64,000 bases of DNA from Sedimentibacter sp. SX930 (lineage in GTDB: Bacteria; Bacillota; Bacilli; Lactobacillales; Aerococcaceae). This document shows positions 10-60,320 of this stretch, piece after piece (position 1 is the stretch's first letter; the number at the start of each line of letters is the position of its first letter). The notes beneath the pieces were generated by a model. That model had not been told where the DNA came from, ran no database searches, and worked only from the letters and a program-made list of their open reading frames with translations. The translations under genes and the position numbers were made by a program. The stretch spans positions 62,001 through 126,000 of the forward strand of contig MUZD01000006.1 in assembly GCA_002155105.1 (NCBI GenBank), in the 5' to 3' direction.

Positions 10-200
10 AAGAAACCATGAATAACTGCCGGTTATCCATGCTTTTGGAATCGCGAACACATCAAAAAGATGGATATAAAATTGTTATCCATTGTTTTGG
101 CTCCCGAGCGGACCATAAACATGAATGACGAATCTTTATCCATCTTTCCGAAATCACCATAAACAAAAAAGATGGATAACATCAAAGTATCCATCTTTTC
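10..200. repeat. Tandem hairpin array 1 (51-52 bp period)
   Basis: Four imperfect hairpins follow one another. Their right arms, of the type TATCCATCTTTT, begin at 34, 86, 137 and 188, a spacing of 52, 51 and 51. The left arms (AAAAGATGGATA type) begin their core near 17, 69, 120 and 171. The last unit, 167-199, is a perfect 12-bp stem with a 9-nt loop. The others have two to five mismatches. The array lies beyond the 3' end and terminator of the dgaE-like gene. No gene is seen in 1-315. Confidence 0.7.
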
Positions 201-220
201 CCCACTAACAAATTCAACAC

Positions 221-252
221 CAAAAATTAAAGCCGCCTCGCAAGGAGACGGC
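221..252 (-). terminator. Rho-independent terminator after dgaE-like gene
   Basis: On the minus strand a GCCGTCTC / GAGGCGGC stem with a CTTG loop is followed by TTTAATTTTTG. It sits about 65 bases after the distal stop codon of the dgaE-like gene. Confidence 0.7.
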
Positions 253-315
253 CTATCTTTATCAACGCAAGCCCATGTAGATGGTGTAAGAACTCACGGG
301 TCACAGCGGTGGAAA

Positions 316-1422
316 TCAGTCTTTCTCATCGCCTAAAATTTCATGTAATCGCTGAACAATTTTCGTCATTTCTGCTTGGTTGACGGAACGAATGTCAAAT
401 TCAATGATGCCGTTATTGGCTTGGTATTCACGCGTATAAATCGCTGGACTTTGCGTTTTTAGCTGTTATATGACTTCTTTTGCACTGATTGTTCCGGTCA
501 CTTTGACGCTGGCCCGATAAATTTCTCTGCCTGCACTGTCTTGCACAGTGCAGGCTTGTAGATCCGGCATTTGATTGAGCCCTTCAATAAAAGGGACTAA
601 GCGCGCCTTCATCGATTCGCCACTTTCGCTGCCGTTAGTCAAATAATCTTCCACAGCTTGAGCCAGCCCTAAAATATTGTCTTTGCCGATCTTCATGGCG
701 CGACCAATTCCCTTGCCCTGGAGCCGCACCCACTCAATCGCGCTTTTTTTCCCGACAACCAAGCCGGCACTTGGGCCTTCAATCGCTTTGGCTCCTGAAT
801 AAATCACTAAGTCCGCCCCTGCTGCATAATAGCGGAATAAATCTTCTTCCGCTGCGGCATCGACGATCACCGGCAAATCGTATTTCCGGGCGACGGTCAC
901 CATTTCTTCCACTGTCAGCATGCTTTTCTGCACGGTGTGGTGACTTTTGATGTAAAGCAGGGCAGCCGTTTCCTCGGTGATCATCATTTCCACGTGTTCT
1001 GGGGTGCACATATTTGCATATCCGGCTTCAACGACTTTTCCGCCTCCTTGTTCGACCATGACTTCGACGGGCGTACCGTAATCCACATTATGGCCTTTGG
1101 GTAAAATAATTTCTCGTTGCGTGATTTTTTCTGTATAAGGATGGTAAGCATGAAATAATCTTCCTTTGCCGATTACGCCTGCCACGGATTGGGCGATGCC
1201 TGCTGAAGCAGAAGACACGATTTGAACATCTTCGGCTTTGAGCAGTTCAGCCAAATAAGCGCCTACTTTCACCGACAGTTCTTCCATTTCAAAAAAATGT
1301 TCTCCTCCATATTGTTGGGCAGCCAAAACCGTCGGGGATACTTTTGACACTCCCAGGAGTGTCATTCTACCTGAAGCGTTGATTACTTCCTTTAATCCCA
1401 ATTTATCGTAACTGATTGTCAT
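316..1422 (-). pseudogene. dgaE: D-glucosaminate-6-phosphate ammonia-lyase (DgaE-like), interrupted by in-frame TAA
   Basis: This is a PLP-dependent enzyme of the SelA/DgaE family, which converts D-glucosaminate-6-phosphate to 2-keto-3-deoxygluconate-6-phosphate. Seen: the N-terminal motif VINASGRMTLLG, the segment IVDAAAEEDL, and SGAKAIEGPSAG near residue 212, which holds the expected PLP lysine. The start at 1422 follows GGAGGGAATTTTT. The frame stops with TAA at 466-468 after 318 residues. The same frame then continues without shift for 49 more codons (QLKTQSPAIYTREY onward, ending GDEKD) to a TGA at 316-318. The read-through product would be about 368 aa, the usual family length. So one base change, natural or a sequencing error, splits the gene. 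The last 50 residues belong to the small C-terminal domain, so the 318-aa product may be inactive. It lies 25 bases after the TRIC gene and is probably cotranscribed with it. No dgaF neighbour is visible. Confidence 0.8.
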
Positions 1423-1447
1423 AAAAATTCCCTCCGATGTATCGAAC

Positions 1448-2065
1448 CTATTCCATGGTGACCTTCCCGACTTTCAGCAGATGCACGTCCTTCTCCATGC
1501 AGTAGAGCCTGATCAAAGTCGTTGCCAAAAAGCAGCTGTACAGCGCCATTTGGCTACCAGCCAAGCGGAACACGATAATGTATAGGATGGCACCCAGTAT
1601 GGAAGCCATCGCGTAGACCTCTTTGCGGAATACATAAGGGATCTCCCGAGCGAATACATCCCGGATAAGCCCGCCGCCGGTTCCGGTCAGGACAGCCAAC
1701 GTCACGACCACGTACCACTGCTGGAAGCCCATCCGCACAGCCACTTCCGCTCCGATGGCGGTAAATGCCCCGAGCCCGATTGCATCAAAGAACTGAAGCT
1801 TCTTCGCCAATTTGCTGATGTGCGTATAGAAAAGGATGACGAAGCCCGCCGAAAGCAGGCTGATAAGCGCATAGAGCGGGTTTTCCAAGGATGCCGGCAA
1901 CGGGCGATCGATCAACAGGTCCCTGACGATCCCTCCACCCACCGAAGTCGTTATCGCAAATATCCCGATTCCGTAATAATCAAGATCCTTCTCGATCGCG
2001 GTCAACGCCCCTGACATCGCAAAGGCGATTGTACCGATAATTTCCACAATTGAAATAAATTCCAT
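1448..2065 (-). CDS. TRIC/UPF0126 family membrane protein
   Basis: A 205-aa integral membrane protein with seven predicted hydrophobic segments and two related halves. Each half has a glycine-rich GGGxxRD turn: TTSVGGGIVRDLL near residue 40 and LTGTGGGLIRDVF near 127. This is the signature of the UPF0126/YicG family, the prokaryotic relatives of trimeric intracellular cation channels. It probably forms a small-ion channel; some members have been proposed to carry glycine. The start at 2065 has GGGGGGATACAATATA upstream. It precedes the dgaE-like gene by 25 bases on the same strand. No functional link between the two is evident. Confidence 0.85.
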   Translation of the reverse strand: MEFISIVEIIGTIAFAMSGALTAIEKDLDYYGIGIFAITTSVGGGIVRDLLIDRPLPASLENPLYALISLLSAGFVILFYTHISKLAKKLQFFDAIGLGAFTAIGAEVAVRMGFQQWYVVVTLAVLTGTGGGLIRDVFAREIPYVFRKEVYAMASILGAILYIIVFRLAGSQMALYSCFLATTLIRLYCMEKDVHLLKVGKVTME

Positions 2066-2129
2066 TATATTGTATCCCCCCTAATGATGGTTTTCTGAAA
2101 ATATTTTTGTTTCGCAAAAAGTATAACGC

Positions 2130-2168
2130 AAAAGAATGCAAAGTCGCCATAACTTTGCATTCTTTTTT
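2130..2168. terminator. Bidirectional-looking terminator
   Basis: The 14-bp stem AAAAGAATGCAAAG / CTTTGCATTCTTTT with a 9-nt loop is flanked by A and T runs. It lies between the end of the MFS gene and the start of the TRIC gene, so it probably ends the amidohydrolase-MFS transcript. Confidence 0.75.
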
Positions 2169-2201
2169 ATTCCATTTTTTAGCCTGTTTGCACAAACCTA
2201 T

Positions 2202-3593
2202 TTATTCCGTAGCTTCCACTTGAGCAGCAGCTTTTGGAGCTGTCAGCAAAATAGAAGCCAATGCAATCGTCCCAAAAGCGACATTCAGCATCAATCCGGC
2301 AGAACCGGCCACTTCCATATTTCCTTGCGCTCCCAAAGCATTGAAAAGGCTGGACGAAAGTGCGACCCCGACTGCTCCGCCTAAAGAGCTGGCCATTTTG
2401 TAGATGCCTGACGCGCTGCCGATTTTATCAGCAGGAGCATTCGAAATTGCGGTATCAGTGGAAGGTGTCGCATAAATCCCCAAACCGAAGCCGTACAAAG
2501 CATAGCCGACGAACACAAGCAGATTATAAATGATTCCCGGCACAAAAGTGAAGGCCATCAAAGCAATCCCGATGGTCGCAATGAATGATCCGGTCACCAT
2601 TGGCTTGCGGGAACCGAATTTTTGCAAAGCTTTTTCACCCAAACGGATTGAGCTCAATACGCAAACCAAGTAACCGATCGTCAGCAATCCGGATTGGAAA
2701 GAAGAGAAACCACGGCCAACTTGAACATAAGTGTTAGCAACCAACATTGTACCTGCAGAAGCATTCAACAAGAAGTTAGACAAAGTGGCACCACTGTAAG
2801 CTTTGTTTTTGAATAGAGAGAAGTCGATGAAGCTGTTCGCATGTCTTTTTTCGATATTCACAAAAAGGATCACTGAAATGACGAATGCCACAGCCAATCC
2901 CAAGATAATAGGATTTGACCATCCCATAGTTCTTCCTTGGCTGATAAAAACATTGAAAGTCAGCATAGCAATCACGAAAGTGATCAGTCCGCCGACATCA
3001 AAAGGTTTCTTTTCGCCGACTGCTTCAACTTTGCTTTCTGGAGTATCTTTAAGCAAAAGAAGCCCAATAACAGCAACTATAATCGAAACGATGAAGATTG
3101 CACGCCAGCCGAAGTAAGTGGCTACTAAACCGCCGAAGAAGGAACAAATTCCTGAGCCGCCCCAAGAACCGATTGACCAGAAGCTCAACGCACGTTGTCT
3201 TTCAGCTCCATCGAAGTAAGTCTTCATCAAAGCCAAAGTAGCCGGCATGATGCACGCAGCAGATAGCCCTTGGATGATACGACCGATGATCAACAAAGCT
3301 GGGCCATTTGCCAATACTAAGCACAGTGAACCGATGATGCTCAGGATCATTCCGATATTCGTAACTTTTACGCGGCCATGTTTATCCGCAAGCCCACCAG
3401 CAACAACCATAAACATACCTGAGAATAAAGATGTCAAACTGATGGCAATGCCCAAGATGCCGGATGAAATGCCCAAGTCTGCTTGGATGGCCGGTACGAT
3501 GTTCACCATTGTTTGAGCAAACAACCAGAATGTTACAACCCCTGAAACAATCCCCAAAATAAGTCTATTATTACCTTTGTATTGCGTTTCCAC
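2202..3593 (-). CDS. MFS drug:H+ antiporter-type transporter (DHA2-like)
   Basis: A 463-aa major facilitator transporter with about 14 hydrophobic segments. The conserved cytoplasmic motif A variant GGLADKHGRVKV is at residues 66-77, and GRIIQGLSAACIMPATLALM follows near 105, both typical of the EmrB/QacA (DHA2) subgroup. The start is GTG at 3593. It overlaps the TAG stop of the amidohydrolase gene by one base, giving tight translational coupling. Substrate is unknown. The partnership with an M20D amidohydrolase suggests transport of an acylated or amidated amino acid rather than a drug. That is inference. Confidence 0.85.
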   Translation of the reverse strand: METQYKGNNRLILGIVSGVVTFWLFAQTMVNIVPAIQADLGISSGILGIAISLTSLFSGMFMVVAGGLADKHGRVKVTNIGMILSIIGSLCLVLANGPALLIIGRIIQGLSAACIMPATLALMKTYFDGAERQRALSFWSIGSWGGSGICSFFGGLVATYFGWRAIFIVSIIVAVIGLLLLKDTPESKVEAVGEKKPFDVGGLITFVIAMLTFNVFISQGRTMGWSNPIILGLAVAFVISVILFVNIEKRHANSFIDFSLFKNKAYSGATLSNFLLNASAGTMLVANTYVQVGRGFSSFQSGLLTIGYLVCVLSSIRLGEKALQKFGSRKPMVTGSFIATIGIALMAFTFVPGIIYNLLVFVGYALYGFGLGIYATPSTDTAISNAPADKIGSASGIYKMASSLGGAVGVALSSSLFNALGAQGNMEVAGSAGLMLNVAFGTIALASILLTAPKAAAQVEATE

Positions 3594-4795
3594 TATTTTT
3601 CACTGCTCCCTTTTAAGTAATCAATAACCAATGTCCCCATTGTTTCGGCTGCGATCAGCATACTGTCCTCATTGATCCGGAATTTCGGATGATGATGTGG
3701 ATAAGCTTCGCCGTCTTTCGGAGTCGCTCCGACATACAGGAAGACGCTCGGGCGTTCCTTCGCATAATAAGCAAAATCTTCCGAAGGCGGCTGCGCCTCG
3801 CAGCGTTCCACTGCCGTTACTCCCGGCATTTCGGTAGCCTGCAGAGCCGCAGCTGCGAAAGCCGTCATTTCCGGATCGTTGAACAGCACCGGATAGTCGT
3901 TTTCGTAATCCAGTTCATAGGTCACATCGAACATGGCCGAGATGCCGTCCAGTTTCGCCCGGATTTCCTTTTCGATCAGCGTGCGTGTCTCTTCGGACAT
4001 CGAGCGCACATCGCCTTCCAACATAACCGAATCTTTGATAACATTGAACGAACCTTTGCCGTCAAAACTGCCGATTGTGATTGAGCCGACATCGAATGGA
4101 TTCATACGGCGGCTGACGATGGATTGCACAGCCACGACAAAATAGCTGGCCGCCACGATGGCGTCGTTGGCTTTATGCGGCGAGGAGCCGTGGCCGCCGA
4201 CGCCCTGGATCTTCACGCGGAAATTGGCGCGGCCGGTCTGAACATTGCCTTCACGGTAGAACACTTTGCCGCTGTCCATCTGTGACATCACGTGGATGCC
4301 GAATACCGTGTCGACGCCCTCCAAAGCACCGTCCTTGATCATGCCGATCGCTCCGCCCGGCGGAACTTCCTCTGCAGGCTGATGCAGCACAACAATCTTT
4401 CCTTCAAGTTGTTCCTTCATCTCGATCAAGGTTTCAGCCAGGGTCAGCATGTAGGCTGTATGTGCATCATGTCCGCAAGCGTGCATGACTCCCAGCGTTT
4501 TTGAGGCAAATGGCAAGCCGGTTTCCTCTTGGATCGGCAACGCATCAAAGTCCGCTCGGATGGCTACTGTTTTTCCCGGTTTGCCGCTGTCGATGGTCAC
4601 GACGATGCCCAAGCCGCCGACATGGGTGCGGACTTCACACTCTTTCCCTGCATAAAAAGCTTCGATATACTTGGCCGTGTTCTCCTCCTGGAAAGACAAT
4701 TCCGGATGGGCATGCAAGTAGCGGTAGATTTCGATCATGCGCTCCTGCTTCTCGGCTAACTTGCTGAATAATTGCTTTTTGGTCGCTTCTTTCAT
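3593..4795 (-). CDS. M20D family amidohydrolase
   Basis: A 400-aa zinc-dependent amidohydrolase of the M20D (IAA-amino-acid hydrolase / N-acyl amino acid deacylase) family, probably cytoplasmic. Metal-binding elements seen: HACGHDAHT at 105-113, HQPAEEVPPGG near 138, GIHVMS near 172, and a C-terminal HHHPKFRINED. The start at 4795 follows an AAGGGAGCGC-type site. It is the first gene of a two-gene unit with the MFS transporter. A second, divergent M20D enzyme lies at 60389-61561, again paired with a transporter. The exact substrate cannot be read from the sequence. Confidence 0.88.
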   Translation of the reverse strand: MKEATKKQLFSKLAEKQERMIEIYRYLHAHPELSFQEENTAKYIEAFYAGKECEVRTHVGGLGIVVTIDSGKPGKTVAIRADFDALPIQEETGLPFASKTLGVMHACGHDAHTAYMLTLAETLIEMKEQLEGKIVVLHQPAEEVPPGGAIGMIKDGALEGVDTVFGIHVMSQMDSGKVFYREGNVQTGRANFRVKIQGVGGHGSSPHKANDAIVAASYFVVAVQSIVSRRMNPFDVGSITIGSFDGKGSFNVIKDSVMLEGDVRSMSEETRTLIEKEIRAKLDGISAMFDVTYELDYENDYPVLFNDPEMTAFAAAALQATEMPGVTAVERCEAQPPSEDFAYYAKERPSVFLYVGATPKDGEAYPHHHPKFRINEDSMLIAAETMGTLVIDYLKGSSEK

Positions 4796-5024
4796 TTTTT
4801 TGCGCTCCCTTATTTTTGACTGTTTGGAACTATCCTATTAGTTGTTTAATGCTACGTTTCTTAATCACTCAGCTAGTATACCGCCACAAAAAAATAAGAA
4901 AAGGCTCGTTATTATGAAAAACATCCTGATTTTTGTCTTCGCATTTCCGGAAATCAGTTGAACAGCAATTTTATGCGGATGCTTTTTGTCCGAATCCCCT
5001 TTCAATTGTCGTATGACTCGTTAG

Positions 5025-5261
5025 ATGTCCGATAACTCAAAAGAATCAGACATCGAGAGAGCAGTTGTGCTGGAGGTTGTCCAATAACTCAAATGAATCG
5101 GACAACCTCAATGCAATCGTTCTGCTGCTTGTCCGATAACTCGAATGAATCGGACATCCGCAATGCAAATGTCCTGCTGCTTGTCCAATAACTCAAATGA
5201 ATCGGACAACCTCAATGCAAATGTCCTGCTACTTGTCCGATAATCCGGAAGAATCGGACAA
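5025..5261. repeat. Tandem hairpin array 2 (51-52 bp period)
   Basis: Five units begin at about 5025, 5077, 5129, 5181 and 5233. Each has arms TTGTCCGAT / ATCGGACAA around an 11-nt loop, with a near-constant 23-nt linker resembling CCTCAATGCAAATGTCCTGCT. Some arms carry Y/R changes (CCAAT for CCGAT). A degenerate relative may lie at 4986. The array fills most of the 535-bp gap between the amidohydrolase start (4795) and the end of the AraC-GH39 gene. In 4796-5020 I see only the upstream region of the amidohydrolase. Confidence 0.8.
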
Positions 5262-5283
5262 GCCGAAAGTATCCGGCGACAAA

Positions 5284-5316
5284 AAAAGGTTGTCTCGTGG
5301 GAGACAACCTTTTCTT
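5284..5316 (-). terminator. Rho-independent terminator after AraC-GH39 gene
   Basis: A perfect stem AAAAGGTTGTCTC / GAGACAACCTTTT with a 4-nt loop and a following T7 run on the minus strand. It lies 15 bases past the stop codon. Confidence 0.85.
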
Positions 5317-5330
5317 CATTATTGTTCTGC

Positions 5331-7682
5331 TCAGCCAATCGCTCGGCGGAACTCGATGAACAAGATCGCGTTGCTGCTCATCGAAGCATAAAAGGACCAA
5401 TCTTTGTCGATTTGTTCATCCTCCAGCTCCAAAGTAGGCATGGAGGATTGAACAACGTATTCCATCACTTCGATGTCGATGCCGTGCTTGCTGTTCAGCT
5501 GCTCCCATTTTGTGTAGAGTCCGCCATTTTGCTGATCGAACCGGTATTTCCGGACTTGGTATTCCCCGGGCTCCATGCCGATCAGCCGGACATGCAGTTC
5601 GTTGCTGCGGTTCCGCATGAACAATTCGTCGACCGAGTAGCGCGGATTGAAATGCTTTTCGTTGAAAAGCAGCAGTTGGTAACCCTCTTCGTTTTCGGTC
5701 AGCACATAATGTTCTCCCTGAGCGCGCACTTCGCCCGTCATCCGTTCCTTGAACATCAGCGTGTAGAAAGCAGGCCTCTTGCCATTGAAGAAATGGAACA
5801 GCTCCAAACCCGCCACAGCCTTGTTGTGGTTTCCTCCGTGCAGCTCATGGAGTTCGCTGTTCAGCCAAAAACCGACGCCCGCGACTTCAGTCCCCAAATC
5901 CAAGATAGTCCTCAGGATCAGCGCACCCCGGAAAAAAGTCCCGTTTGTGTAGCGCGTGTTTCCGGTCAGCGTGTTCCAATTTTCCAGGTACAGTGGCTGA
6001 TGCATCTGGTGCTTTTTCAGGAAACGTTTCAGCTTTTGCGTTTTCCGCAGGATATAGCCTTGGCTGTTCAGGAAGTCTTCATCGCTGATTTCAGAAAAGT
6101 CGACGACCTCGTTCTGATCGGCATCATAGGTGATGAAGTCGATGCTGTCGGATTGGTGAAGTTGCCAGTGATGCGACAATGAAAGACTATCTTTGTCCTC
6201 TTTGAAAGGAAGGAAAGTGCCGATTTTCAGCTGAACAGCATATTTCCGGATCACTTCATGCAGCCTCAAGTACACGCGCTCCAACTCTGTGGACAGGACG
6301 GCCGTCTCTTTTTCCGCATAGAAAACGACTTTCCATTGGTTAACAAATTTCCTGCCGAATACCTGCAGTGTGTGGATCAGAAACCCTTCAAGTTCTCTGA
6401 AATAGCGCTCTTCATTGTGGATGACTTCTTTATAAGTGATCCGCAAATACAGGCTGATATCCAGTTCCTTCAGGTACTGGATGGCCAAATCGGCGTTGGC
6501 GTACTTCGGTGTGGTGGATACGAACTCATCCGTCTCGACTTCCGGCAATAAAGTGGATCCGCCGATCAGATTGCGCACCCCCACAAAATCGACGCGAAGG
6601 CGCTGCTTGGCAAGAAGCACTTGCTCCTTCACCTGCTCGTTCAGGATTTCCTTCAGTTCCCCGATGAACACAACATGCTTTTCGCGCGCCAATAGTCTTT
6701 CGGCATCACTGTCTCCGACAACGATCTTGCATGCTTCACCCGGCGCCTCGTCCGGCAATGCGCGCGGATTCAGAGGCTCCTCCAAATATTTTGTCAACTG
6801 CATCAGCGCTTCCGGCGAATCCAATTCCTTTCCGGCTTCCGTTTTGGCGGTCACTGCTCCGAACGCTTCGCTGTTTTCTTGTTTATGTTCCTTCCGGTAC
6901 TGCACCGGTGTCTGATCGTAGACCGATTTGAAGGCTTCCGTAAAATTCTTCGCGGTCGAGAAGCCGTTTTGCACCGCAATCTGGAACAAATTATCGGATG
7001 TATGCAGCAAGTCCTCCACACAGTGCTTCAAACGCACCATCTTCAGATATTGCAGAAAGCCCATTCCGGTCGTCTGCTTGAAGTAACGTGATAAATAGGT
7101 AGGCGACAAGTACTCGCTTTCCGCCATCTCCGCAAGCGTCAACGGTTCCGCATAGCGGAGTTCAATCGTATGGATGATCCGGGCGATCCGTTCATCGCTC
7201 GCTTCGCCCCCTCCTGTCTGCGGCCCCTCTTTTTTGAAGAAGCGGGTCACCAGCAGCATCGTCTGAAACAGGATACTGCGGGCCTCCAAAACGCTTCCTT
7301 CTTCCTGGCGGGAATGGACGATCACAAGTTCAGCCAGCAGCCTGCGCAGCTGCGCTACGACATCCCCGCGCCCCGGATCCAAATTTTTCGAGAAACATTC
7401 GAAGGAGTAATGGAAGTAATTCGGGTAGTTCAGCACGAAGAAATGGCTGGGGATGCTCAGGCAAATGAGGATATTATTTTCGCTGCCCCGGACAGTATAG
7501 TGGTCGTTCCGGTTGATGAAGAGAATATCCCCTTCATCCAGAGCATAAATTTCCCCATTGACGGACACGCTCGCCCTTCCTTTGGTCACGAACAAAATCC
7601 GAGTGCCGTAATACCGTTGTGGCGCGGCATAACGGATGTTCCCCATCGTGATATCATAATCTGCCCCATGCTCTCTCGTCAT
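5331..7682 (-). CDS. AraC-family regulator fused to a GH39-like xylosidase domain
   Basis: A 783-aa protein. Residues about 10-110 form a cupin sensor (TRILFVTKG, LDEGDILFINRND). About 185-270 hold two AraC helix-turn-helix motifs (MAESEYLSPTYLSRYFKQTTG and NLFQIAVQNGFSTAKNFTEAFKSVY). The C-terminal 480 residues resemble a glycoside hydrolase family 39 barrel plus beta-sandwich (YLRITYKEV, LYLENWNTLTGN, GVGFWLNSELHELHGG). This architecture is known in Firmicutes, where the barrel probably binds sugar rather than cleaving it. I chose the ATG at 7682, preceded by GGAGGAGAATCG, instead of upstream codons lacking a ribosome site. No xylan-degradation genes are adjacent, so its target is unknown. 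Confidence 0.85.
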   Translation of the reverse strand: MTREHGADYDITMGNIRYAAPQRYYGTRILFVTKGRASVSVNGEIYALDEGDILFINRNDHYTVRGSENNILICLSIPSHFFVLNYPNYFHYSFECFSKNLDPGRGDVVAQLRRLLAELVIVHSRQEEGSVLEARSILFQTMLLVTRFFKKEGPQTGGGEASDERIARIIHTIELRYAEPLTLAEMAESEYLSPTYLSRYFKQTTGMGFLQYLKMVRLKHCVEDLLHTSDNLFQIAVQNGFSTAKNFTEAFKSVYDQTPVQYRKEHKQENSEAFGAVTAKTEAGKELDSPEALMQLTKYLEEPLNPRALPDEAPGEACKIVVGDSDAERLLAREKHVVFIGELKEILNEQVKEQVLLAKQRLRVDFVGVRNLIGGSTLLPEVETDEFVSTTPKYANADLAIQYLKELDISLYLRITYKEVIHNEERYFRELEGFLIHTLQVFGRKFVNQWKVVFYAEKETAVLSTELERVYLRLHEVIRKYAVQLKIGTFLPFKEDKDSLSLSHHWQLHQSDSIDFITYDADQNEVVDFSEISDEDFLNSQGYILRKTQKLKRFLKKHQMHQPLYLENWNTLTGNTRYTNGTFFRGALILRTILDLGTEVAGVGFWLNSELHELHGGNHNKAVAGLELFHFFNGKRPAFYTLMFKERMTGEVRAQGEHYVLTENEEGYQLLLFNEKHFNPRYSVDELFMRNRSNELHVRLIGMEPGEYQVRKYRFDQQNGGLYTKWEQLNSKHGIDIEVMEYVVQSSMPTLELEDEQIDKDWSFYASMSSNAILFIEFRRAIG

Positions 7683-7791
7683 CGATTCTCCTCCATTCTT
7701 TTCTCCCATTATCCACCTCATACCCAATCGGCACAATGGCCATTTTCCGACAACTATTTGAACGAATCAGTCTGATCCTGCAAAAAAACAA

Positions 7792-7824
7792 AAAATGCCC
7801 CCAAAGCAAAGCCCGGGGACATCT
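7792..7824 (-). terminator. Terminator after alcohol dehydrogenase gene
   Basis: On the minus strand ATGTCCCC pairs with GGGGGCAT, with a T run after it. It is 26 bases past the dehydrogenase stop. Confidence 0.75.
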
Positions 7825-7849
7825 TGTCTGTTCATGAAACTAATTTTTA

Positions 7850-12454: not shown

Positions 12455-12612
12455 AAACAAAAAACCCTTCTTTAAACAAGAAGAGTCGGGAATGTCGCTT
12501 TACTCTTCTTATCTCTCAGATTGCTCTGCAGGATTTAGCACCGTGCCGCTGCGTTCGCGCAGGGGTCGGTTGCTGAGATGTCATCGGGCCAGTCCCTCGA
12601 TCTCTCTTGATA
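12455..12612 (-). ncRNA. SAM-I (S-box) riboswitch with terminator
   Basis: Read on the minus strand, the aptamer spans about 12612 to 12508. It begins TTATCAAGAGAG, continues GGGACTGGCCCGATGA, CAGCAACC and GTGCTAAATCC, and closes with CTGAGAGATAAG, all in the family order. A terminator-like stem AAGAAGAGT / ACTCTTCTT follows at 12510-12470, with T-rich sequence after it. The aptamer's 3' arm overlaps the terminator stem, as expected for transcription attenuation by S-adenosylmethionine. Confidence 0.9.
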
Positions 12613-12637
12613 AAGAAGTTATTTAATTTTCAAACAT

Positions 12638-13217: not shown

Positions 13218-13304
13218 ATTTCTGTATGGGACTTGATTTTACGCTCAGAAATAACCTTTCAAAACCGTTATGGCGGGGAATCCCGTTACTAACTCTCTCT
13301 CTGA

Positions 13305-13437
13305 TTGTCCGATTTCTCCACGTTATCGGACAACCACCAATGCCAACTGACTCCGCTTGTCCGATTCTTCCGCATTATCGGACAACCAGCAAGACAATCT
13401 CACTCCGCTTGTCCGATTCCTCCGCCTTATCGGACAA
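13305..13437. repeat. Tandem hairpin array 3 (52 bp period)
   Basis: Three 29-nt units start at 13305, 13357 and 13409, exactly 52 bp apart. Arms are TTGTCCGAT / ATCGGACAA, and the loops resemble TCTTCCGCATT. The loop of unit 2 is nearly the reverse complement of the fifth unit of array 2 (10 of 11 bases). Array 3 is therefore array 2 in opposite orientation. It ends 8 bases before the DUF47 stop codon. Confidence 0.8.
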
Positions 13438-13444
13438 GCTCGGA

Positions 13445-14077
13445 TCAAGCATATTTCAACGCAATCTCTTCCACGAATTTGGTCACGTCCTTGAAGGCGT
13501 CGCAACAATCCTCCAGGGATTTATAGATTTTGCTTAGGATGACGGTGCTGACCGCATCCACATCGTTCTGAAAGAGATCGCGCATGGATTGGATATACAG
13601 CAGATCGCCTTCTTTTTCACAGGCATTGATCCGGTCGATGACTGCATGGATCTCTTTTTGCGATTTCTTATAGGTTTTTAATAGCCTTACCGCCGTAAGC
13701 AGTTCTTCGGCTGATTTTTCGACCAGATCCAGGAATTGGTTGATTTCCGGGGTGATGTTCTGCGGTTGATAGATCTCAATATGGATCATGACATCCTCTA
13801 TCATGTCGATGGCATGGTCCAGACTGGTTACCAGCGCAATCACATCCTGCCTGTCGAAAGGCGGCAACAGATCGTTGTACATATAGCGCATCAGCCTGTA
13901 TTTCGCGAGGTCGGCATTGTGTTCGATTTCATGCATCTCGTCCAATTTTTGACTTAGATCAGCGACCGGATAATCCGCCAGCACCTGCTTCAGAAATTCC
14001 GCCGATTGGACACCCCATTCGGCAAGCTTGATGAACTCATCGAAATAATCCAACTTTTCCGTCTTCTTTTTGAACAT
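13445..14077 (-). CDS. DUF47 (PhoU-like) protein, phosphate transport accessory
   Basis: A 210-aa all-helical DUF47 protein, the YkaA/PhoU-like partner of PiT transporters. Metal-coordinating-type helices are seen: DEMHEIEHNADLAKYRLM near residue 46, LVTSLDHAIDMIEDVM near 82, and INACEKEGDLLYIQSMRDLF near 149. It starts 12 bases after the PiT stop codon with GGGGGAGCCGGTT as ribosome site. The pair is almost certainly one operon. The protein probably modulates phosphate uptake at the membrane. Confidence 0.9.
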   Translation of the reverse strand: MFKKKTEKLDYFDEFIKLAEWGVQSAEFLKQVLADYPVADLSQKLDEMHEIEHNADLAKYRLMRYMYNDLLPPFDRQDVIALVTSLDHAIDMIEDVMIHIEIYQPQNITPEINQFLDLVEKSAEELLTAVRLLKTYKKSQKEIHAVIDRINACEKEGDLLYIQSMRDLFQNDVDAVSTVILSKIYKSLEDCCDAFKDVTKFVEEIALKYA

Positions 14078-45213: not shown

Positions 45214-45217
45214 CGGC

Positions 45218-52901: not shown

Positions 52902-52920
52902 CAGTAGGCGCAAAATATAA

Positions 52921-52971
52921 AAAAATAGACGAATACGCTGCGGTTTTTCGCAAGTATTCGGCTATTTTTCA
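52921..52971 (+). terminator. Terminator after truA
   Basis: AAAAATAG-GAATAC pairs with GTATTC-CTATTTTT around a GC-containing loop. Confidence 0.8.
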
Positions 52972-53057
52972 TTGACTGCAACAAACACTGCTCTTATCTT
53001 TTGTCTTGTGAAATATTTAATAAGTAATAAAAAAATTTGGATTAAGGAAGTGTCCAC

Positions 53058-53765: not shown

Positions 53766-53855
53766 CACTGGAGAGTCAGAGTGGCCTCTGCCACGAAAAT
53801 GGGATCCGGGACGCTGGACTCGAAATTTATTGTGATTGACGAGAACAGAAACCTG

Positions 53856-53903
53856 AATAGCCTGATGTCATGCGAGGTTTTCGCTGGCATCAGGCTATTT
53901 TTT
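53856..53903 (+). terminator. Terminator after rluF
   Basis: AATAGCCTGATG pairs with CATCAGGCTATT around a longer loop, followed by a T6 run. Confidence 0.85.
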
Positions 53904-54116
53904 ATTTTCCGGCAGAGATCTGTGCAGGTTCACTTGTAAAGGATTCCCTCTTTTGTATGTATTGTGTGGGAACTACATTTTACCAAAGAGAGGTGTCTTT
54001 TTGCGTGTATTTTGAATATCAACAAATAATTTACGCGATTACAAGACCTTTTTTAGAATGTTGGTTGACACCTCATTTCCCTAGTGATTATCACTACAAC
54101 GTAATGTAATTGTCCG

Positions 54117-54173
54117 AGCGTACCATATAGTTATGTTTTATATTATAGTATTTTTCAATTAGTACGCTATAAT
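54117..54173 (+). promoter_or_regulatory. Promoter of the polysaccharide island with inverted repeat
   Basis: AGCGTAC (54117-54123) and GTACGCT (54162-54168) form an inverted repeat 38 bases apart. The right arm overlaps a perfect -10 TATAAT (54168-54173). The -35 region is weak, so an activator or repressor acting on the repeat is likely. Confidence 0.5.
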
Positions 54174-54214
54174 GTCTATGTATGTACAATATATAAATAC
54201 ATTAGGGGTTATCT

Positions 54215-55072
54215 ATGAAGAATAAACAACAAATAATCAAGGTTACTTTCGGAGGAGTGTTGGTTATCGTGAGCTTACTTACTTTTATAAAACCTTATTT
54301 TGATGATAACTACGAAACTTCTGTTTTTTCTTGGTATGAAGAACAAGTTATAAATTTTGATGACACTTTCAGGACTCTATCTACCTTAAAGGTAAGTACA
54401 ATCTATCAATTTATATCTTATGATCCTGATGTTGAATTAATAGATGATTTTTTGGAAAGTGCCACGAAATATGAAAAAAATGTCTATTTCTTAACGGGCG
54501 AGCCAGAATGGGCTTTGGATCCCGAAGCAACAGAATTGAAAGCTTATATTGAAACAATCAATATGTTCAAAAAAAAGCATACATCTTTGAAAGGTATTGT
54601 AATTGATGTTGAACCTCAATCATTAGATGAATACCAAGAGTCTCCGGCTGAAGTAATGTCATTGTTCGTCCAAGCAATGAAAACTGCATATACTGCAGCT
54701 CACAAAGTTGGTTTAGAGGTCGTTTTGTGTCTGCCTAATTCACTTGATACTCTAGGATTTGAAAAAGATCTTGATATTTTGATTCGCGACGCATCAGATA
54801 GCTTAGCAATAATGAATTATCATCGCGGCCAAGAAATTGAGCGTATTGAAACGGAAGCAATTTTAAGTGCTAAATACAACAAACCAATAATCAATATTTA
54901 TGAACTGCAACCCGCAGGCACATTTGATTTAACCGAGGAAAATACCTACTTTAATCACGGCGTTACTGCTGTATATGAAAATTATAAATATATGAAAAAC
55001 GTTTTTGATACGCAAGAAATTTTCTTGTCCTTGCATGAGTTCCAATACTTGCGCATGCTGACTGAAAAATAA
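54215..55072 (+). CDS. Membrane-anchored TIM-barrel-like protein, polysaccharide island gene 1
   Basis: A 285-aa protein with one N-terminal membrane helix (residues about 9-26) and an extracellular domain. The strand-end motif LKGIVIDVEPQS near residue 126 carries a D-x-E pair like the catalytic strand of glycoside hydrolase family 18-type barrels. VGLEVVLCLPNSLDTLG and LAIMNYHRGQEIERIETEA follow in barrel order. It may hydrolyse or deacetylate a glycan made by the glycosyltransferase two genes on. The family is not recognised with certainty. ATG at 54215 follows AGGGGTTATCT. Confidence 0.6.
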   Translation: MKNKQQIIKVTFGGVLVIVSLLTFIKPYFDDNYETSVFSWYEEQVINFDDTFRTLSTLKVSTIYQFISYDPDVELIDDFLESATKYEKNVYFLTGEPEWALDPEATELKAYIETINMFKKKHTSLKGIVIDVEPQSLDEYQESPAEVMSLFVQAMKTAYTAAHKVGLEVVLCLPNSLDTLGFEKDLDILIRDASDSLAIMNYHRGQEIERIETEAILSAKYNKPIINIYELQPAGTFDLTEENTYFNHGVTAVYENYKYMKNVFDTQEIFLSLHEFQYLRMLTEK

Positions 55073-55089
55073 CTTAAGGGGGAATAGTT

Positions 55090-56181
55090 ATAGATTACCT
55101 GTTATCGATTTATTTGTTGTTGCTTCTGTATACACTTCTGAGTACGGGATTGTTTTTTTTTGTGATTGTATTTCACCGTTATACAAAAAAAATGGCGCTA
55201 CGAAAGCAAAGAGATAGTCTGCGATGGATAAATTTTATTAAAGAAAATATAATTTTGCCAGCAAACGGTGCAAATCATGTCATCAAACACAGCGAGTGGC
55301 GACGCCTGCATTCTGTGTGGGAGCTAGTCAGCTTTTCAGAAGCGGTCGAAACACTTTTAAAGAGCGATTCACATCCTAATCTGTTGGCTGCAATCAAAAC
55401 CAATATACCTGGTTGGGTTACCTTGGGTCACTATTACAAAAAGAAACCTTCAATTTATAAAGCCTTCTATGCATATATCTGTAGCCGTATGCCTAAATTA
55501 GAGAGCGAACATTATCAACACTTGATCCCGTTGATGCAAGAATTTCTAGAAGATTGTTCGATTTATACTAAAGAAAATGCATTGAATGCTTTATATCATT
55601 TTGGGCAACCCAAGCCTGTTTTGGAGGCCTTACGCAAATTATCAAAAAAGGAATCGCTCCATAATAATAAATTGATTACTGATGGTCTACTGACCTATAC
55701 GGGGAATAAAAACGAATTAATTGAAGGCTTGTATCAAAATATCGCTGATTTTAGCTTGTGTTATCAGGTGGCTATTTTAGATTATTTCCGTTTTGATGGT
55801 GAAATACTCAAAGATCGTCTTTACCAATACTTAGAAAATAAACAAACACATAAGGATATCGTTTGTCCGGTGCTAAGATATTATACAAAGTATCCAGTTG
55901 AGGAACTACAACCCTTGATTTTGAGTTGGATGGATGAAGAAAGTGTGACAGATTGGGAGTGTATTTCAGTTGCATCCTCTGCCTTGGCGAAATATCCTGG
56001 AAAAGATACAGAGGCCGCTCTGATGAAAGCTACACGCTCAAGGCATTGGTATGTCCGTTTCAATTCTGCAAAGTCCATCCATACACTAGGCATATCTAAT
56101 GATAAATTAATTGAAATCTTGCAAGGTGATGATGCTTACGCAAGAGAACAACTACAATACTACTATGGAGAGCAGGTGTGA
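55090..56181 (+). CDS. Membrane-anchored HEAT-repeat protein, polysaccharide island gene 2
   Basis: About 363 aa. One N-terminal helix ([21 protein letters not shown]) is followed by a cytoplasmic all-helical solenoid with HEAT-like units (for example [18 protein letters not shown] near the C-terminus). The start is unclear. AAGGGGG is followed after seven bases by ATA at 55090, in frame. The first conventional candidate is TTG at 55114, 31 bases away from the ribosome site. I give the ATA, a rare start, as the better-positioned choice. The protein probably docks the glycosyltransferase whose ATG overlaps its stop. Confidence 0.6.
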
Positions 56182-57578
56182 ATATGTCTATAGAATCGTT
56201 ATATAATAGCGCAGGTATCTTTTATGCATTTTATCTTATTTTTTATAGTAGTTTTATTTTCGTTGGTACTTGGACCGCTCTCCGAGAATTATTCTACTCA
56301 CGTAAACGAAAATTACTGGAAAATGTATTAGAGCACAACTATTACTTTCCCGTATCCATTATTGTACCCGCTTATAACGAAAGTGCCACAATTCTTACCA
56401 CAATTGACTCGTTGCTACATTTAGAGTATAAAATTTTTGAAATTGTGATAGTTGACGACGGATCAAATGATGATACTGCTCATAAAGTTATTCAAGCCTA
56501 CGATTTGAAACGACAATACCAACCTGTTCATTTACAAGTGAATTGCGCAGCCATAAATGAGGTTTACATTTCTCCTATCGGGAATCACTCCATTAAGCTT
56601 ATCCGTAAGGACAACGGTGGTAATAAAGCTGATGCGCTTAATGCAGGAATCAATGCCTCACGCTATCCTTATTTTGTTTCGATGGATGCGGATGAAATTC
56701 TCCAAGCTGATGCGTTAAAAAATTCCGCACGAATGTTCTTAGAAGATGAAAATGTGATTGCTGTTGGAGGTATGCTGAATATTTCAAACGGAGTTAGCTT
56801 TAAAAACGCTTTGCCTGTTGAAACACCTTTAAGTAGGAACTGGGTTGCAGCTATGCAATCATTGGAATATACAAGGGCTTTTATGGGGTCGCGTGTTTTT
56901 AATAATTCTTTTAATGGTAACTTGAACGTTTCTGGTGGGTATGGTTTATTTAAAAAACAACCAGTAATTCAAATCGGCGGTTATGATTCTAATAGTGTCG
57001 GCGAAGATATGGATTTAGCGATCCGTTTGCACCGTTACTTTGCTAAAAATCGTATAAAATACAGTATAAAATACGCTGCCGATGCAGTCTGTTGGACTCA
57101 AGCCCCATTCTCTTTGCAAGATCTGGCCAAACAGCGAGCTAGGTGGCACCGAGGTCTAATACAATGTATGTGGAGTCACCGCGATTTCTTCATGGCTCCC
57201 ACTTACGGCTATATTAGTGTAGTATCTTACACTTATTTTCTCTTTTATGAATTGGCTGCCCCTATTATCGAGTTATTTGGAGTCTTCTTGCTTATATTGG
57301 CAATTTTCATTAATTATATTAACTGGCCTGTAACAATCATGGCTACTCTACTTTACTCAATTTTTAGTGTTTTACAAACTTTGATTTTCTTTTCAGGTCG
57401 TTATTTTGTGCAAGAACATAAGTACTACAAAGGTGACTTCTTGTGGGCTATTTTTATAAGTTTAGCGGATTTATTATTATTCAGACCATATTTGCTAGGT
57501 GTACGTCTATTCGCAACCATTACTTATAAGAAGTATTTGCACAGTTGGAATAAAATCACGCGGGAAGCATTCGACTAA
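56178..57578 (+). CDS. Processive family 2 glycosyltransferase, polysaccharide island gene 3
   Basis: A 466-aa membrane glycosyltransferase of the PgaC/IcaA/hyaluronan synthase type. One helix at the N-terminus (about 12-35) precedes a GT2 domain: [10 protein letters not shown] near 60, [10 protein letters not shown] near 91, SMDADE near 167, [12 protein letters not shown] near 276, and [11 protein letters not shown] near 320 (the QxxRW acceptor motif). Four more helices follow to the end. Such enzymes make and extrude a linear polymer. The sugar is unknown. It overlaps the HEAT gene by four bases. Codons are AT-richer than in flanking housekeeping genes. Confidence 0.88.
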
Positions 57579-57598
57579 TTTTAAAAAAAGTTTAGACT

Positions 57599-57650
57599 AT
57601 CATCCGAAATGACTTAACTATACAAGTCATTTCGGATGATAATTATTTTA
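57599..57650 (+). terminator. Terminator of the polysaccharide island
   Basis: ATCATCCGAAATGACTT pairs with AAGTCATTTCGGATGAT across an 8-nt loop, followed by AATTATTTTA. Confidence 0.85.
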
Positions 57651-57839
57651 ATGGACTTTTAGTTTCAATTAAACGACAGATTGTTAGTCGTGGTATTATC
57701 AGCCTCTCTATTTCGCTTACCTCGTGATCATCAAACTTTGTAAGTCAACTATTCATTGAAATTTCGGCAGATAATTTATTCTTGAGTAGCATTTTCTGGT
57801 ATTATATTCTTATGACATTTTAATGGAGGAAAATCAAAC

Positions 57840-59036
57840 ATGTTGGAATTTAAACAAAATATACGGGGTAATGTGGCCCTTGGTGTAAACCCGCTTGGAT
57901 GCAAGCAGGAAGTATTGAATGAAATCGACTATGTCAAAAACAAAGGGACCTTTGCAGGTCCGAAAAAGGTCTTGATCATTGGTGCGTCATCAAGCTACGG
58001 TTTAGCTACCCGAATCAGCCTGGCTTTCGGTGCGGGAGCAGATACGATTGGCGTTTCTTTCGAAAAAGGACCGAAGAATGAACGGAATCTCGGCACAGCC
58101 GGCTGGTACAACAATATCGCGTTCCGTGAGGCTGCCGAAAAAGAAGGCCTGATCGCCAAGAACTTTGTGCAGGACGCCTTCAGCCACGAAAGCAAGCAAG
58201 AAGTCATCACATACATCAAGAACGAATTCGGCGGCAAAGTGGACCTGGTCGTCTATAGCCTGGCAAGCGGCCGAAGAACCGATCCCGATACCGGAGAGAC
58301 GTACACATCCGCAATCAAATCGCTTGGTGAGCCAGTGGTCGGTCCGAACATCAATATGCAAAATCATGCTTTCTACACGGAAACGCTGGAACCTGCAACA
58401 GCAGAAGAAATCGCCGGAACCGTCAAAGTTATGGGCGGCGAAGACTGGCAGCTATGGATGGAAGCATTGAAAGAAGCCGATGTATTGGCAGATGGCGTTC
58501 TGACGACCAATTACTCTTATTTGGGAACAGAGCTGAACCGTCCTTACTACGGTGGCGGTACTCTTGGCCTTGCCAAAGCAGATTGTGATGAAAAAGCGAA
58601 GACCATCAATGGATTATTGGCTGACATCAACGGAAAAGCCCAGATTGTGGTAGCTACTGCCGTGACCACTAAAGCCAGCTCCGTGATTCCGTTCTTCCCT
58701 GTTTATTGTATCGGTCTCTACAAAGTCATGACCGAAAAAGGCACCCACGAAACACCGATCATGCACATCGACCGCATTTATCGCGATATGGTTTATGGCG
58801 AAAACGCCGAGTATGACGAAGTTGGCCGCCTGAGACCGGATAGCTGGGAACTTGACAGCGACACCCAAGCCAAAACAAAGGCACTGATCCAACAATTGAA
58901 CAAAGAGAATTTCAATACCGACATGGCAGCTTACGACCTCCTCTACAAAGAGTTCTCGAACTTGAGCGGCTTTATGGTGGACGGCTATGTCGAGCAAGAC
59001 GTTACGATTGAAGAATTGAAAGCACTAGAATATTAA
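57840..59036 (+). CDS. fabV: Trans-2-enoyl-ACP/CoA reductase
   Basis: A 398-aa FabV-type reductase, reducing the enoyl double bond with NADH in fatty acid synthesis or butyrate-type chemistry. Seen: VNPLGCKQEVLNEIDYVK near residue 17, the nucleotide motif LIIGASSSYGLATRIS near 45, VVYSLASGRRTDPDTG near 137, and a YSYLGTELNRPYYGGGTLGLAK active-site region near 225-246, with Tyr and Lys spaced as in the family. The product is of normal FabV length. ATG at 57840 follows GGAGGAAAATCAAAC. FabV confers natural triclosan tolerance in other bacteria. Confidence 0.92.
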   Translation: MLEFKQNIRGNVALGVNPLGCKQEVLNEIDYVKNKGTFAGPKKVLIIGASSSYGLATRISLAFGAGADTIGVSFEKGPKNERNLGTAGWYNNIAFREAAEKEGLIAKNFVQDAFSHESKQEVITYIKNEFGGKVDLVVYSLASGRRTDPDTGETYTSAIKSLGEPVVGPNINMQNHAFYTETLEPATAEEIAGTVKVMGGEDWQLWMEALKEADVLADGVLTTNYSYLGTELNRPYYGGGTLGLAKADCDEKAKTINGLLADINGKAQIVVATAVTTKASSVIPFFPVYCIGLYKVMTEKGTHETPIMHIDRIYRDMVYGENAEYDEVGRLRPDSWELDSDTQAKTKALIQQLNKENFNTDMAAYDLLYKEFSNLSGFMVDGYVEQDVTIEELKALEY

Positions 59037-59081
59037 ATCGTTCCGGTGACACGACTCACCCTTTATCCGCATCGATGAAAG

Positions 59082-59115
59082 AAAAGTCCTGGCTCTGAGA
59101 GTCAGGGCTTTTCTG
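59082..59115 (+). terminator. Terminator after fabV
   Basis: AAAAGTCCTG pairs with CAGGGCTTTT (one wobble), then CTG. Confidence 0.75.
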
Positions 59116-59284
59116 CTTCCACGGCTGACGACACAAGCGTTTCTTTTCCATCCGGTTGCCGTTTCCATCTAAATATTGGTCGATAATCAAAATAGTGTTA
59201 TAATGATAGACAATGATACACCAAATTTGAATAAGCCTTTATTGACCAGACACAGCTATTGCCTCTGCAAAAGAAAGAAGGAAA

Positions 59285-60052
59285 ATGGATATGTTCAGAA
59301 TAAAAAATTTCGAAGATAACAATGATGTGAAAATTGTCGAAGAGATGGGCGCATTTAAGGTCGTGGAATACTTGAAAGATTTGAGTGTCGATCACCTGAC
59401 AGCTCAAGCTGCCTACTATGCTTCTGAAATGAACGTCAGAAGAAGACAGCTGGTCTGCGATGTCAGCCTTTCCGACATCACCGTTCAATCAGGAGCCATG
59501 CAGTGGATGGTCGGGAATGTCAGTGCTACAACCGGGCTTAAAGGCGTGGGCGATTTTTTGGGAAAAGCGCTTCGAGGGAAAGTCACGAATGAATCCGCAA
59601 TTAAGCCTGAATACACCGGAACCGGAAAGCTGGTATTGGAACCGACCTATAAGCATATTTTGCTGATTGATGTCGATGACTGGAATGGCTCAATTGTAAT
59701 CGAAGACGGATTATTTTTGGCTTGCGATTCGGAATTGAACCACAAAGCAGTTATGAAGTCCAACCTCTCTTCTGCTGCGATGGGCGGAGAAGGTCTTTTT
59801 AACCTAGGTCTTTCTGGCGGCGGGATTGTCGCACTTGAATCTTACGTACCAAGAGAAGAACTGATAGAAATAGAGTTGGAAAATGATGAATTGAAGATTG
59901 ATGGGAATATGGCGATCGCTTGGTCCGGCAGCCTGGAATTTACAGTATCAAGATCAGGCCAGACGCTTCTGGGTTCAGCCGCATCCGGCGAAGGTTTGGT
60001 CAATGTCTATCGTGGAACAGGCAAAGTTTTGATGGCGCCCGTTCTCCGGTAA
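59285..60052 (+). CDS. AIM24 family protein
   Basis: A 255-aa AIM24/TIGR00266-type protein. The N-terminus MFRIKNFEDNNDVKIVEEMG and the helix HLTAQAAYYASEMNVRRRQL are followed by a double-stranded beta-helix with family features: LSDITVQSGAMQWMVGNV, GTGKLVLEPTYKHILL, SAAMGGEGLFNLGLSGGGIVALES, and a C-terminal ASGEGLVNVYRGTGKVLMAP. The function in bacteria is unknown. ATG 59285 follows GAAGGAAA closely, and ATG 59291 two codons on is an alternative. Confidence 0.88.
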   Translation: MDMFRIKNFEDNNDVKIVEEMGAFKVVEYLKDLSVDHLTAQAAYYASEMNVRRRQLVCDVSLSDITVQSGAMQWMVGNVSATTGLKGVGDFLGKALRGKVTNESAIKPEYTGTGKLVLEPTYKHILLIDVDDWNGSIVIEDGLFLACDSELNHKAVMKSNLSSAAMGGEGLFNLGLSGGGIVALESYVPREELIEIELENDELKIDGNMAIAWSGSLEFTVSRSGQTLLGSAASGEGLVNVYRGTGKVLMAPVLR

Positions 60053-60128
60053 AAAAACATGACCTATCGATCGCTTGTTTCATTTTTGATACCAAGCGAT
60101 GCCATTCACTTAAGCAAGTTGACAACTG

Positions 60129-60170
60129 CAAAAAAAGCGAGGATGCCTGATGCATTCTCGCTTTTTTTTG
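60129..60170 (+). terminator. Terminator after AIM24 gene
   Basis: AAAAAAGCGAG pairs with CTCGCTTTTTT around a 15-nt loop, with a T8 run. Confidence 0.85.
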
Positions 60171-60181
60171 ACTGCGGGGCC

Positions 60182-60320
60182 AAATTGTTGAATGTTCCTC
60201 AGATATTCGACAATTTCGATCCAGCAGGATGTCAAATTGTCGAAAGTTTCTCGGCATTCGACAATTTCGGTCCAATCTGGTGTCAAACTGTCGAATCCAC
60301 CTCACCTATTCGACAGCTTT
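60182..60320. repeat. Tandem hairpin array 4 (51-52 bp period)
   Basis: Three units begin near 60183, 60235 and 60286. Arms are of the type AATTGTCGAAT / ATTCGACAATT around 11-12 nt loops. In unit 3 the left arm reads CTGTCGAAT and the right arm ATTCGACAG, a paired change that keeps the stem. The array lies between the AIM24 terminator and the end of the convergent amidohydrolase gene. Confidence 0.75.

Follow-up and report, generated by a model that had tools for sequence, protein, structure and literature searches.

Why should four groups of hairpins with unlike stems, scattered over tens of kilobases, repeat with nearly the same period? The question is raised by a 64,000-bp stretch of the genome of Sedimentibacter sp. 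SX930 (positions 62001-126000 of contig C29 of the 3.13-Mb genome G000; hereafter the window; genomes, contigs, and loci are cited by our own handles), in which a preliminary description had noted four tandem hairpin arrays. The four arrays are real, with hairpin centers approximately 51-52 bp apart (Table 1). Tandem Repeats Finder (TRF), which is blind to hairpins, independently recovers arrays 2, 3, and 4 with a period of 51-52 bp. When a stem of at least 8 is demanded, a criterion for which array 1 is too weak, the window contains three chains of at least three hairpins spaced by 50-53.5 bp (two of them also including an adjoining terminator hairpin), compared with none in 40 of 40 order-2 Markov resamples. 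As argued below, the arrays are rather probably helically phased sites on double-stranded DNA for sequence-specific dimers, a reading to which we attach moderate confidence.

One spacing for unlike palindromes

The genome G000 is placed here in Trichococcus because genomes of that name align with it at approximately 80-95% over kilobases. In total, 853,087 bp of it were read, the window included (27% of the genome). Further arrays of the same period, looked for on the suggestion of the preliminary description, are present in number: when stems must reach 8 with no more than one mismatch, 24 chains of at least three hairpins are spaced by 50-53.5 bp, whereas 15 other spacing windows between 34 and 97.5 bp hold a single chain among them. 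A laxer stem lists 27 chains, a few of which take in a terminator hairpin, and one of which (C1:339579) looks like chance.

At least five stem families follow this one ruler in G000, namely A (TGTCCGAT-11-ATCGGACA), B (TTGTCGAA..TTCGACAA), C (ATGGATA..TATCCAT), D (CTCCGG-14/15-CCGGAG), and E (CCCGCCAA-7-TTGGCGGG). A scan of the window for all five finds the four clusters of Table 1 only. Outside it, family C recurs at C1:485900 with a 51-bp spacing, and family B at C1:74077, with variants in another Trichococcus (L135). Exact single sites of family A number 88 in G000, and the reversed pattern has none; 44 of 47 neighboring units are exactly 52 bp apart and the other three 51 bp. In family D, 20 chains contain 34 neighboring pairs at distances of 49-52 bp, and the spacer measures 22-25 bp in 33 of the 34. 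Divided by five turns (six for the 62-bp arrays described below), the observed periods correspond to 10.1-10.6 bp per turn.

The two best sampled families differ in the likeness of their spacers. Taking the best of five shifts, consecutive spacers of family D are 43% identical (n=14) and those of different arrays 38%, while by the same measure those of family A are 86% identical within and 42% between arrays. Since the spacers of family D are near background similarity, its period does not stem from simple recent duplication, which upholds what the preliminary description had argued from the equal period of unlike stems. The arrays of family A are partly tandem duplicates, so that their period alone is weak evidence, and the weight falls on family D, the unrelated families, and other genera. 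A single ruler common to unlike stems is confirmed genome-wide.

Conservation of sequence and of pairing

Whether such hairpins act as DNA or as RNA should be visible in the way their arms change. The family A loci L021-L088 were chosen for an exact tandem pair, which creates an ascertainment bias; the substitution test therefore omits the 37 units in the first exact pair of each locus, along with six gapped units (before removal of the ascertained units, the arm change was 1.3%). In the 32 orthologous units compared between G000 and its congeners, 24 of 512 arm bases have changed (4.7%), versus 99 of 352 in loops (28%) and 209 of 694 in spacers (30%). None of the 22 changed arm pairs is compensatory, and 14 of the 20 one-sided changes break a pair. 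Among 305 distinct Trichococcus units of the family (33-mers), the eight arm pairs carry 75 one-sided and 11 two-sided changes. The preliminary description had held that stems are kept by paired changes and hence that structure, not sequence, is selected. The paired change that it cited does exist (T-A to C-G, in the third unit of array 4), but one-sided changes far outnumber paired ones genome-wide; compensatory changes are absent from the orthologous pairs and few in the 305 units (nine paired), and selection for structure in place of sequence is not supported, in view of the conserved arms and of the anti-paired interior described next. As judged from these comparisons, the arms of family A are conserved as sequence and not as pairing.

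Inside the arms of family A, the two halves avoid pairing: in the G000 units, pair 9 is paired in four of 66 cases, compared with a shuffle mean of 30.1 (z -6.7), and 60 of 64 units consist of one A-type and one T-type half-site, which are obligately unlike. Half-site positions 7-12 of family D show no significant excess of pairing between arms in 59 distinct units. The anti-paired interior of family A and the independent half-sites of family D are the opposite of what is expected of an RNA helix. RNA covariation was rejected as an explanation, having no support in the arms of family A and the half-sites of family D save at one arm pair and at the first pair beyond the arms.

The asymmetry of the units also gives each array of family A a polarity. 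It is the same in 44 of 44 array neighbors, opposite between arrays 2 and 3, and random with respect to flanking tandem genes (11 same, 16 opposite). Of the two readers of even spacing proposed in the preliminary description, a protein that needs it fits the data, whereas an RNase is disfavored because loop polarity is random and the arrays often lie past a terminator. Rfam at the gathering score gives no match at any array; its sole match in the window is an S-adenosylmethionine (SAM) riboswitch at 12506-12616 on the minus strand (78.5 bits).

Location in the genome and at orthologous places

The clusters are found downstream of gene 3' ends, in the intergenic gap and in many cases beyond a terminator, which bears out the preliminary placement of the window arrays directly past the ends of genes. 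By our own codon-score or longest-open reading frame (ORF) gene calls, the 54 clusters of G000 comprise 28 between convergent and 25 between tandem genes, none between divergent genes, and one in an ORF. The background of gaps of at least 150 bp, those holding clusters included, comprises 53 convergent, 175 tandem, and 65 divergent ones (Fisher p 1e-5 for the divergent deficit and 5e-7 for the convergent excess). Arrays of family A with at least two units, counted over G000 and the loci, are convergent in 40 cases, tandem in 28, and divergent in none; eight further Trichococcus arrays were left unclassified because they lie within an ORF or at an edge. The 17 arrays from Bacillaceae fall into seven convergent, four tandem, two divergent, and four at an edge when classified by longest ORFs; codon-score calls had put all 17 within an ORF or at an edge. 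Of 75 gene ends that face a cluster, 31 have a terminator ahead of it, as against 47 of 238 control ends (p 4e-4); a terminator beyond the cluster alone was found at six of 81 facing gene ends.

Outside anchors allowed 28 congener arrays of family A to be placed in G000. At 23 of these places G000 also has family A units, in a different number at 16 of the 23; four places are without any searched family and one has an E unit. The orthologue of array 2 in Trichococcus sp. K1Tr (L024) has kept most arms while its loops and spacers drift, and that of array 3 in T. pasteurii (L067) has two of its units. At L056, the place of an A array in Trichococcus sp. K1Tr is taken in G000 by E units, and at L048 an A array faces an E array near a contig end, where the alignment is poor. 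A clean empty site was not found; at L023 and L060, G000 shows other sequence or a short gap. At L060 (approximately 2230-2600), the A array of T. patagoniensis is bracketed by approximately 100-bp direct repeats and stands next to an E array that is conserved; G000 has only some 10 bp there (C1:608454-608464).

Half-sites at array ends

Among 18 Bacillaceae arrays of at least three units, an extra right half-site stands at the start of 13 and an extra left one at the end of 12, with the wrong half at three starts and one end (25 versus 4 of 36 ends in total; Fisher 6.5e-7). Inspection by eye places the point of divergence near the center of the palindrome and shows no target-site duplication at these ends. 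Trichococcus shows a weak trend of the same kind, with 6 + 5 half-sites versus 2 + 2 wrong ones in 62 arrays (11 of 124 ends versus 4 of 124, p=0.11). The terminal half-sites suggest that an added unit may run from center to center, as a crossover at the center would give.

Distribution in Trichococcus and other Bacilli

In the counts of congeners that follow, the own genome is omitted. Tandem pairs of family A occur in the own genome and in eight of 11 congeners, and in none of 48 genomes from elsewhere in the family and order; family E occurs in the own genome, nine of 11 congeners, and none of 88 others. Family D is the most widespread, its sites being present in all 13 Trichococcus genomes (28-267 each versus 1-8 for the control), and a stricter pattern of it in the own genome, 11 of 11 congeners, and none of 48 others. 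G009 has D and neither A pairs nor E, and G004 has D and E and no A pair. In two genomes, D sites show a 189-bp superperiod (G005:C22:57504-57907 and G010:C28:16319-16722).

The pair pattern of family A was found in 68 stretches of named genomes, 55 from Trichococcus and 13 of a Bacillaceae kind, the latter from Mesobacillus, Pseudoneobacillus, Bacillus sp. ISL, and an assembly titled Chryseobacterium that aligns with Bacillus loci. Contigs titled Chryseobacterium sp. ISL-80 (L029, L038, L044, L068, L071) align with Bacillus sp. ISL contigs (L029-L072, L058-L071) and are probably mislabelled. Single sites of family A were detected in nine of 299 Bacilli genomes. Our own is one of them; genus g100 contributes two, with 10 and 21 sites, and g91 another two, with 3 and 1, while the other four have a single site apiece. 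In the g100 genome G342, the period is mostly 52 bp with one step of 51 bp, and the TGTCCGAT arrays of g91 (family f17; G175, G217) repeat at exactly 62 bp, that is, six turns, one more than in Trichococcus; they were read at L178 9314 and L179 8848. Other stems are also involved. G014, of genus g4 in the same family as Trichococcus, has an unrelated stem GTAACAACT in 42 exact copies with a period of 51 bp and arrays of up to 13 exact units, while a second g4 genome (G033) has two copies; further Bacillaceae stems at 52-53 bp stand at L029 and L187. G014 also contains a dispersed element with three hairpins at 39-bp intervals (AGAGTCGC.., TTAGGC.., GTCAATTTC..), in four copies in 60 kb (L140 300 and 18437, L168 8637 and 19599).

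Three surveys speak against generality. In 327 kb drawn from 20 further genomes of the family, the only chain at 50-53.5 bp is that of G014, with three chains at 38-41.5 bp (two of them the dispersed element of G014) and one each at 86-89.5 and 94-97.5 bp; another 364 kb gave one chain near 50 bp, with dissimilar hairpins; and in 388 kb from another 20 Bacilli genomes, neither of the two chains lies near 52 bp. The phenomenon is patchy across Bacilli. The pair pattern of family A had no match in 2.9 million viral contigs, and one tested A array none in 72,556 plasmid records. Among the papers listed in searches of the open-access literature, none on such arrays in Trichococcus was found.

Proposed mechanism and its alternatives

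In the favored reading, each hairpin would be a DNA palindrome of 23-34 bp, depending on the family, in which a short center is flanked by a pair of inverted half-sites, each some 9-11 bp long, and which is bound by a sequence-specific dimer. Dimers would follow one another every 49-53 bp, or five turns, and every 62 bp, or six turns, in g91; with whole-turn spacing, they would share one face of the DNA and could touch. Families A-E and the stems of other genera would represent different half-sites, presumably for different proteins or variants, at the same spacing. Candidate roles are an insulating or architectural one in the 3' gap, or that of the site system of a site-specific recombinase. 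Both the protein binding and the cooperative, helically phased assembly are inferred from sequence.

Several observations weigh against phased dimer sites. No binding protein was found among the Y1, PF00239, and tyrosine recombinase candidates checked. Tandem duplication within the arrays of family A also keeps the period, and the spacers of family D are slightly more alike within arrays than between them (P 0.0085), so that a slight remnant of common origin persists and an old duplication is possible there as well. Single hairpins make up 19 of the 54 clusters in G000, and two of 13 classified Bacillaceae arrays lie between divergent genes. At 38 of 81 facing ends no terminator was detected on either side, and some arrays could be transcribed. 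In the arms of family A, the remaining six one-sided orthologous changes make a pair, and of the 11 two-sided changes among the 305 units the nine paired ones include eight at a single pair. The positions immediately beyond the arms are paired in 217 of 305 units, compared with 199 in the shuffle (z 3.6), and 16 of 24 two-sided changes there are paired. This excess at one arm pair and outside the arms speaks to some extent for structural constraint or shared descent. Finally, Bacillaceae stems are often a perfect 11-bp hairpin followed by CTTTT on one strand, resembling a terminator.

The nearest alternative is a special case of phased dimer sites that names the class of protein: the arrays would be rows of core sites of a resolvase- or Xer-like recombinase, growing or inserting by crossover at the palindrome center. 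We regard it as a tentative possibility. The geometry of subsites I and II of Tn3-type res, as given in the available text of PMC12217951, resembles the 27 + 25 bp with a spacing of 52 or 62 bp seen here. The half-site ends of the Bacillaceae arrays favor such sites, although in Trichococcus their weakness argues the other way. Arms TGTCCGATA resemble the gamma-delta half-site TGTCYGATAA, but the stems of D, E, and G014 are unlike TGTC sites. Mobile-type resolvases of the genus have palindromes of 28-29 bp (TGTCCAGAAA..TTTCTGGACA) upstream, yet no A-E hairpin stands in 20 loci around PF00239 genes of the genus, and a resolvase adjoining the arrays was rejected on these loci. In G009, which is 100% complete and has D sites, both PF00239 matches are long frames (568 and 482 aa), and hence no small resolvase is seen there; moreover, if hundreds of such sites were active, loss of chromosome segments would be expected. 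Spread by a transposase, as of repetitive extragenic palindromes (REP) and bacterial interspersed mosaic elements (BIME), with the 3' position due to selection against insertion into genes and promoters, is rather unlikely. The many copies, the several and lineage-specific stem families, and the presence or absence of arrays between species (the four places without searched families) would fit selfish palindromes, as would the 3' location, reported for REPs in the accessible part of PMC3733652. However, the Y1 transposase PF01797 has no match in G008 (98% complete), where A, D, and E sites are present, and on this absence a REP-associated tyrosine transposase (RAYT) was rejected as partner; it also speaks against the REP/BIME-like family suggested in the preliminary description. 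Y1 matches occur in 12 of 13 Trichococcus genomes, and 11 of 12 Y1 loci are without an A-E hairpin within about 1.5 kb. Inert copies would not be expected to show a fixed whole-turn period and conserved arms, and the viral and plasmid searches also speak against selfish spread.

Two further readings were weighed. That the hairpins act in the 3' untranslated region (UTR) of mRNA, in stability, RNase processing, or termination, is improbable. The position after gene ends with no divergent case in Trichococcus, the hairpin and T-tail of Bacillaceae, and the excess pairing outside the arms of family A are in line with it; against it stand anti-pairing inside the arms, the want of compensation, random polarity, and the frequent terminator ahead of the array, and RNA leaves whole helical turns unexplained. 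Least probable of all, and in our view very improbable, is neutral slippage at hairpins with the period as a historical accident. Unit numbers that vary between species, uniform polarity within arrays, and the residual likeness of D spacers are what slippage would leave, but it does not account for a period common to unrelated stems and genera, for D spacers that are near background similarity and yet near-constant in length, or for family A arms that change six times more slowly than loops.

Two kinds of palindrome outside families A-E were seen near recombinase genes. The palindrome TGTCCAGAAA..TTTCTGGACA stands upstream of a resolvase gene at L198, L200, L201, and L210, and is a probable res site. 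A single palindrome ATGTCCGATAA-7-TTATCGGACAT occurs at L188 10503, L189 8491, L190 2707, and L191 11899; at L188 and L190 it adjoins a module of PIN and tyrosine recombinase genes, with MazE in L190. The tyrosine recombinase beside the single TGTCCGATAA palindromes (L188, L190) was rejected as partner, since all 15 genomes asked, with and without family A, have only matches at 21-28% identity.

If the arrays are indeed phased dimer sites, DNA-bound dimers would sit, mostly in rows, at many gene ends with a ruler measurable in base pairs. They would form a Gram-positive equivalent of BIMEs governed by a clear physical rule, would indicate a further DNA-binding or recombinase protein, and would account for a share of unannotated intergenic DNA. 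A wider version, which we offer as a doubtful conjecture, is that of a patchy system of Bacilli in which unrelated recombinase-like dimers occupy phased arrays in 3' gaps, laid down by crossover at the center that leaves terminal half-sites; the ruler of five or six turns would then reflect a shared protein architecture, not the DNA.

Arrays of the window and their surroundings

The arrays and neighboring features are listed in Table 1.

Table 1. Hairpin arrays, terminator-like hairpins, and flanking genes in the window
Feature	Position	Strand	Stem family	Remarks
Array 1	13..199		C (ATGGATAA..TTATCCAT)	4 units, centers 28, 80, ~132, 182
Array 2	5024..5262		A (TTGTCCGAT-11-ATCGGACAA)	5 units, exactly 52 bp apart
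Array 3	13302..13439		A	3 units, exactly 52 bp apart
Array 4	60182..60319		B (AATTGTCGAA..TTCGACAATT)	3 units, 51.5 bp apart
Terminator-like hairpin	228..259	-		Belongs to gene 466-1422(-), between gene and array 1; GC-rich stem 232-252
Terminator-like hairpin and T-run	5281..5316	-		Belongs to gene 5331-7736(-), between gene and array 2
Terminator-like hairpin and T-run	60130..60168	+		Belongs to gene 59285-60052(+), between gene and array 4
SelA-like/pyridoxal phosphate (PLP)-dependent enzyme gene	466..1422	-		3' end toward array 1
M20 peptidase gene	3593..4795	-		5' end beyond array 2
AraC-type helix-turn-helix (HTH) gene (801 aa ORF)	5331..7736	-		3' end toward array 2
DUF47/PhoU-like gene	13445..14077	-		3' end ~6 bp from array 3
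AIM24-family gene	59285..60052	+		3' end toward array 4 (convergent)
M20 peptidase gene	60389..61561	-		3' end toward array 4 (convergent)

Comparison with known systems

Small dispersed non-coding repeats of intergenic regions are familiar in Firmicutes, where RUP, BOX, Bcr1, and EFAR are described as single mobile units; the arrays described here are likewise non-coding and intergenic but differ in their fixed helical period. Three of these four repeats are named in the available text of PMC3733652. Clustered regularly interspaced short palindromic repeats (CRISPR) share with the arrays palindromic repeats of about 27 bp, a near-constant spacer length and, in family D, spacers that are little alike. 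In contrast to CRISPR, the repeats are degenerate half-sites distributed over many small arrays, and family A spacers are alike within an array; cas genes were not searched for.

Among genomic repeats, REP and BIME are the nearest kind. As far as the available texts of PMC2817692 and PMC3733652 describe them, they too are short palindromes in many copies and several families, clustered and regularly spaced, and lie beyond gene ends, between convergent or unidirectional genes (PMC3733652). However, the link to a Y1 transposase or RAYT fails, and a reading of A-E units, made with no dedicated scan, met no GTAG/CGTC tag. Moreover, the units stand in direct, not alternating, orientation, one whole-turn ruler spans unrelated families, and family A has bipartite half-sites of obligate polarity.

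In geometry, the closest match is the res site of serine resolvases (Tn3/gamma-delta, SGI1), with inverted dimer sites of about 28 bp and centers a whole number of turns apart, according to the parts available of PMC12217951 and PMC9943657, the latter also describing the architecture of Tn3 res. In the Tn3-type res, a 28-bp box I and a 30-bp box II flank a 22-bp spacer, so that their centers are 51 bp or five turns apart; res spacing is generally five turns, and four to seven whole turns are tolerated (PMC12217951, available text). The arrays differ in being rows of up to 13 equal sites, where res has three unequal subsites, and in lying at many chromosomal places with no resolvase gene adjoining. 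We would take the agreement in geometry with res sites as a working likeness, not as identity.

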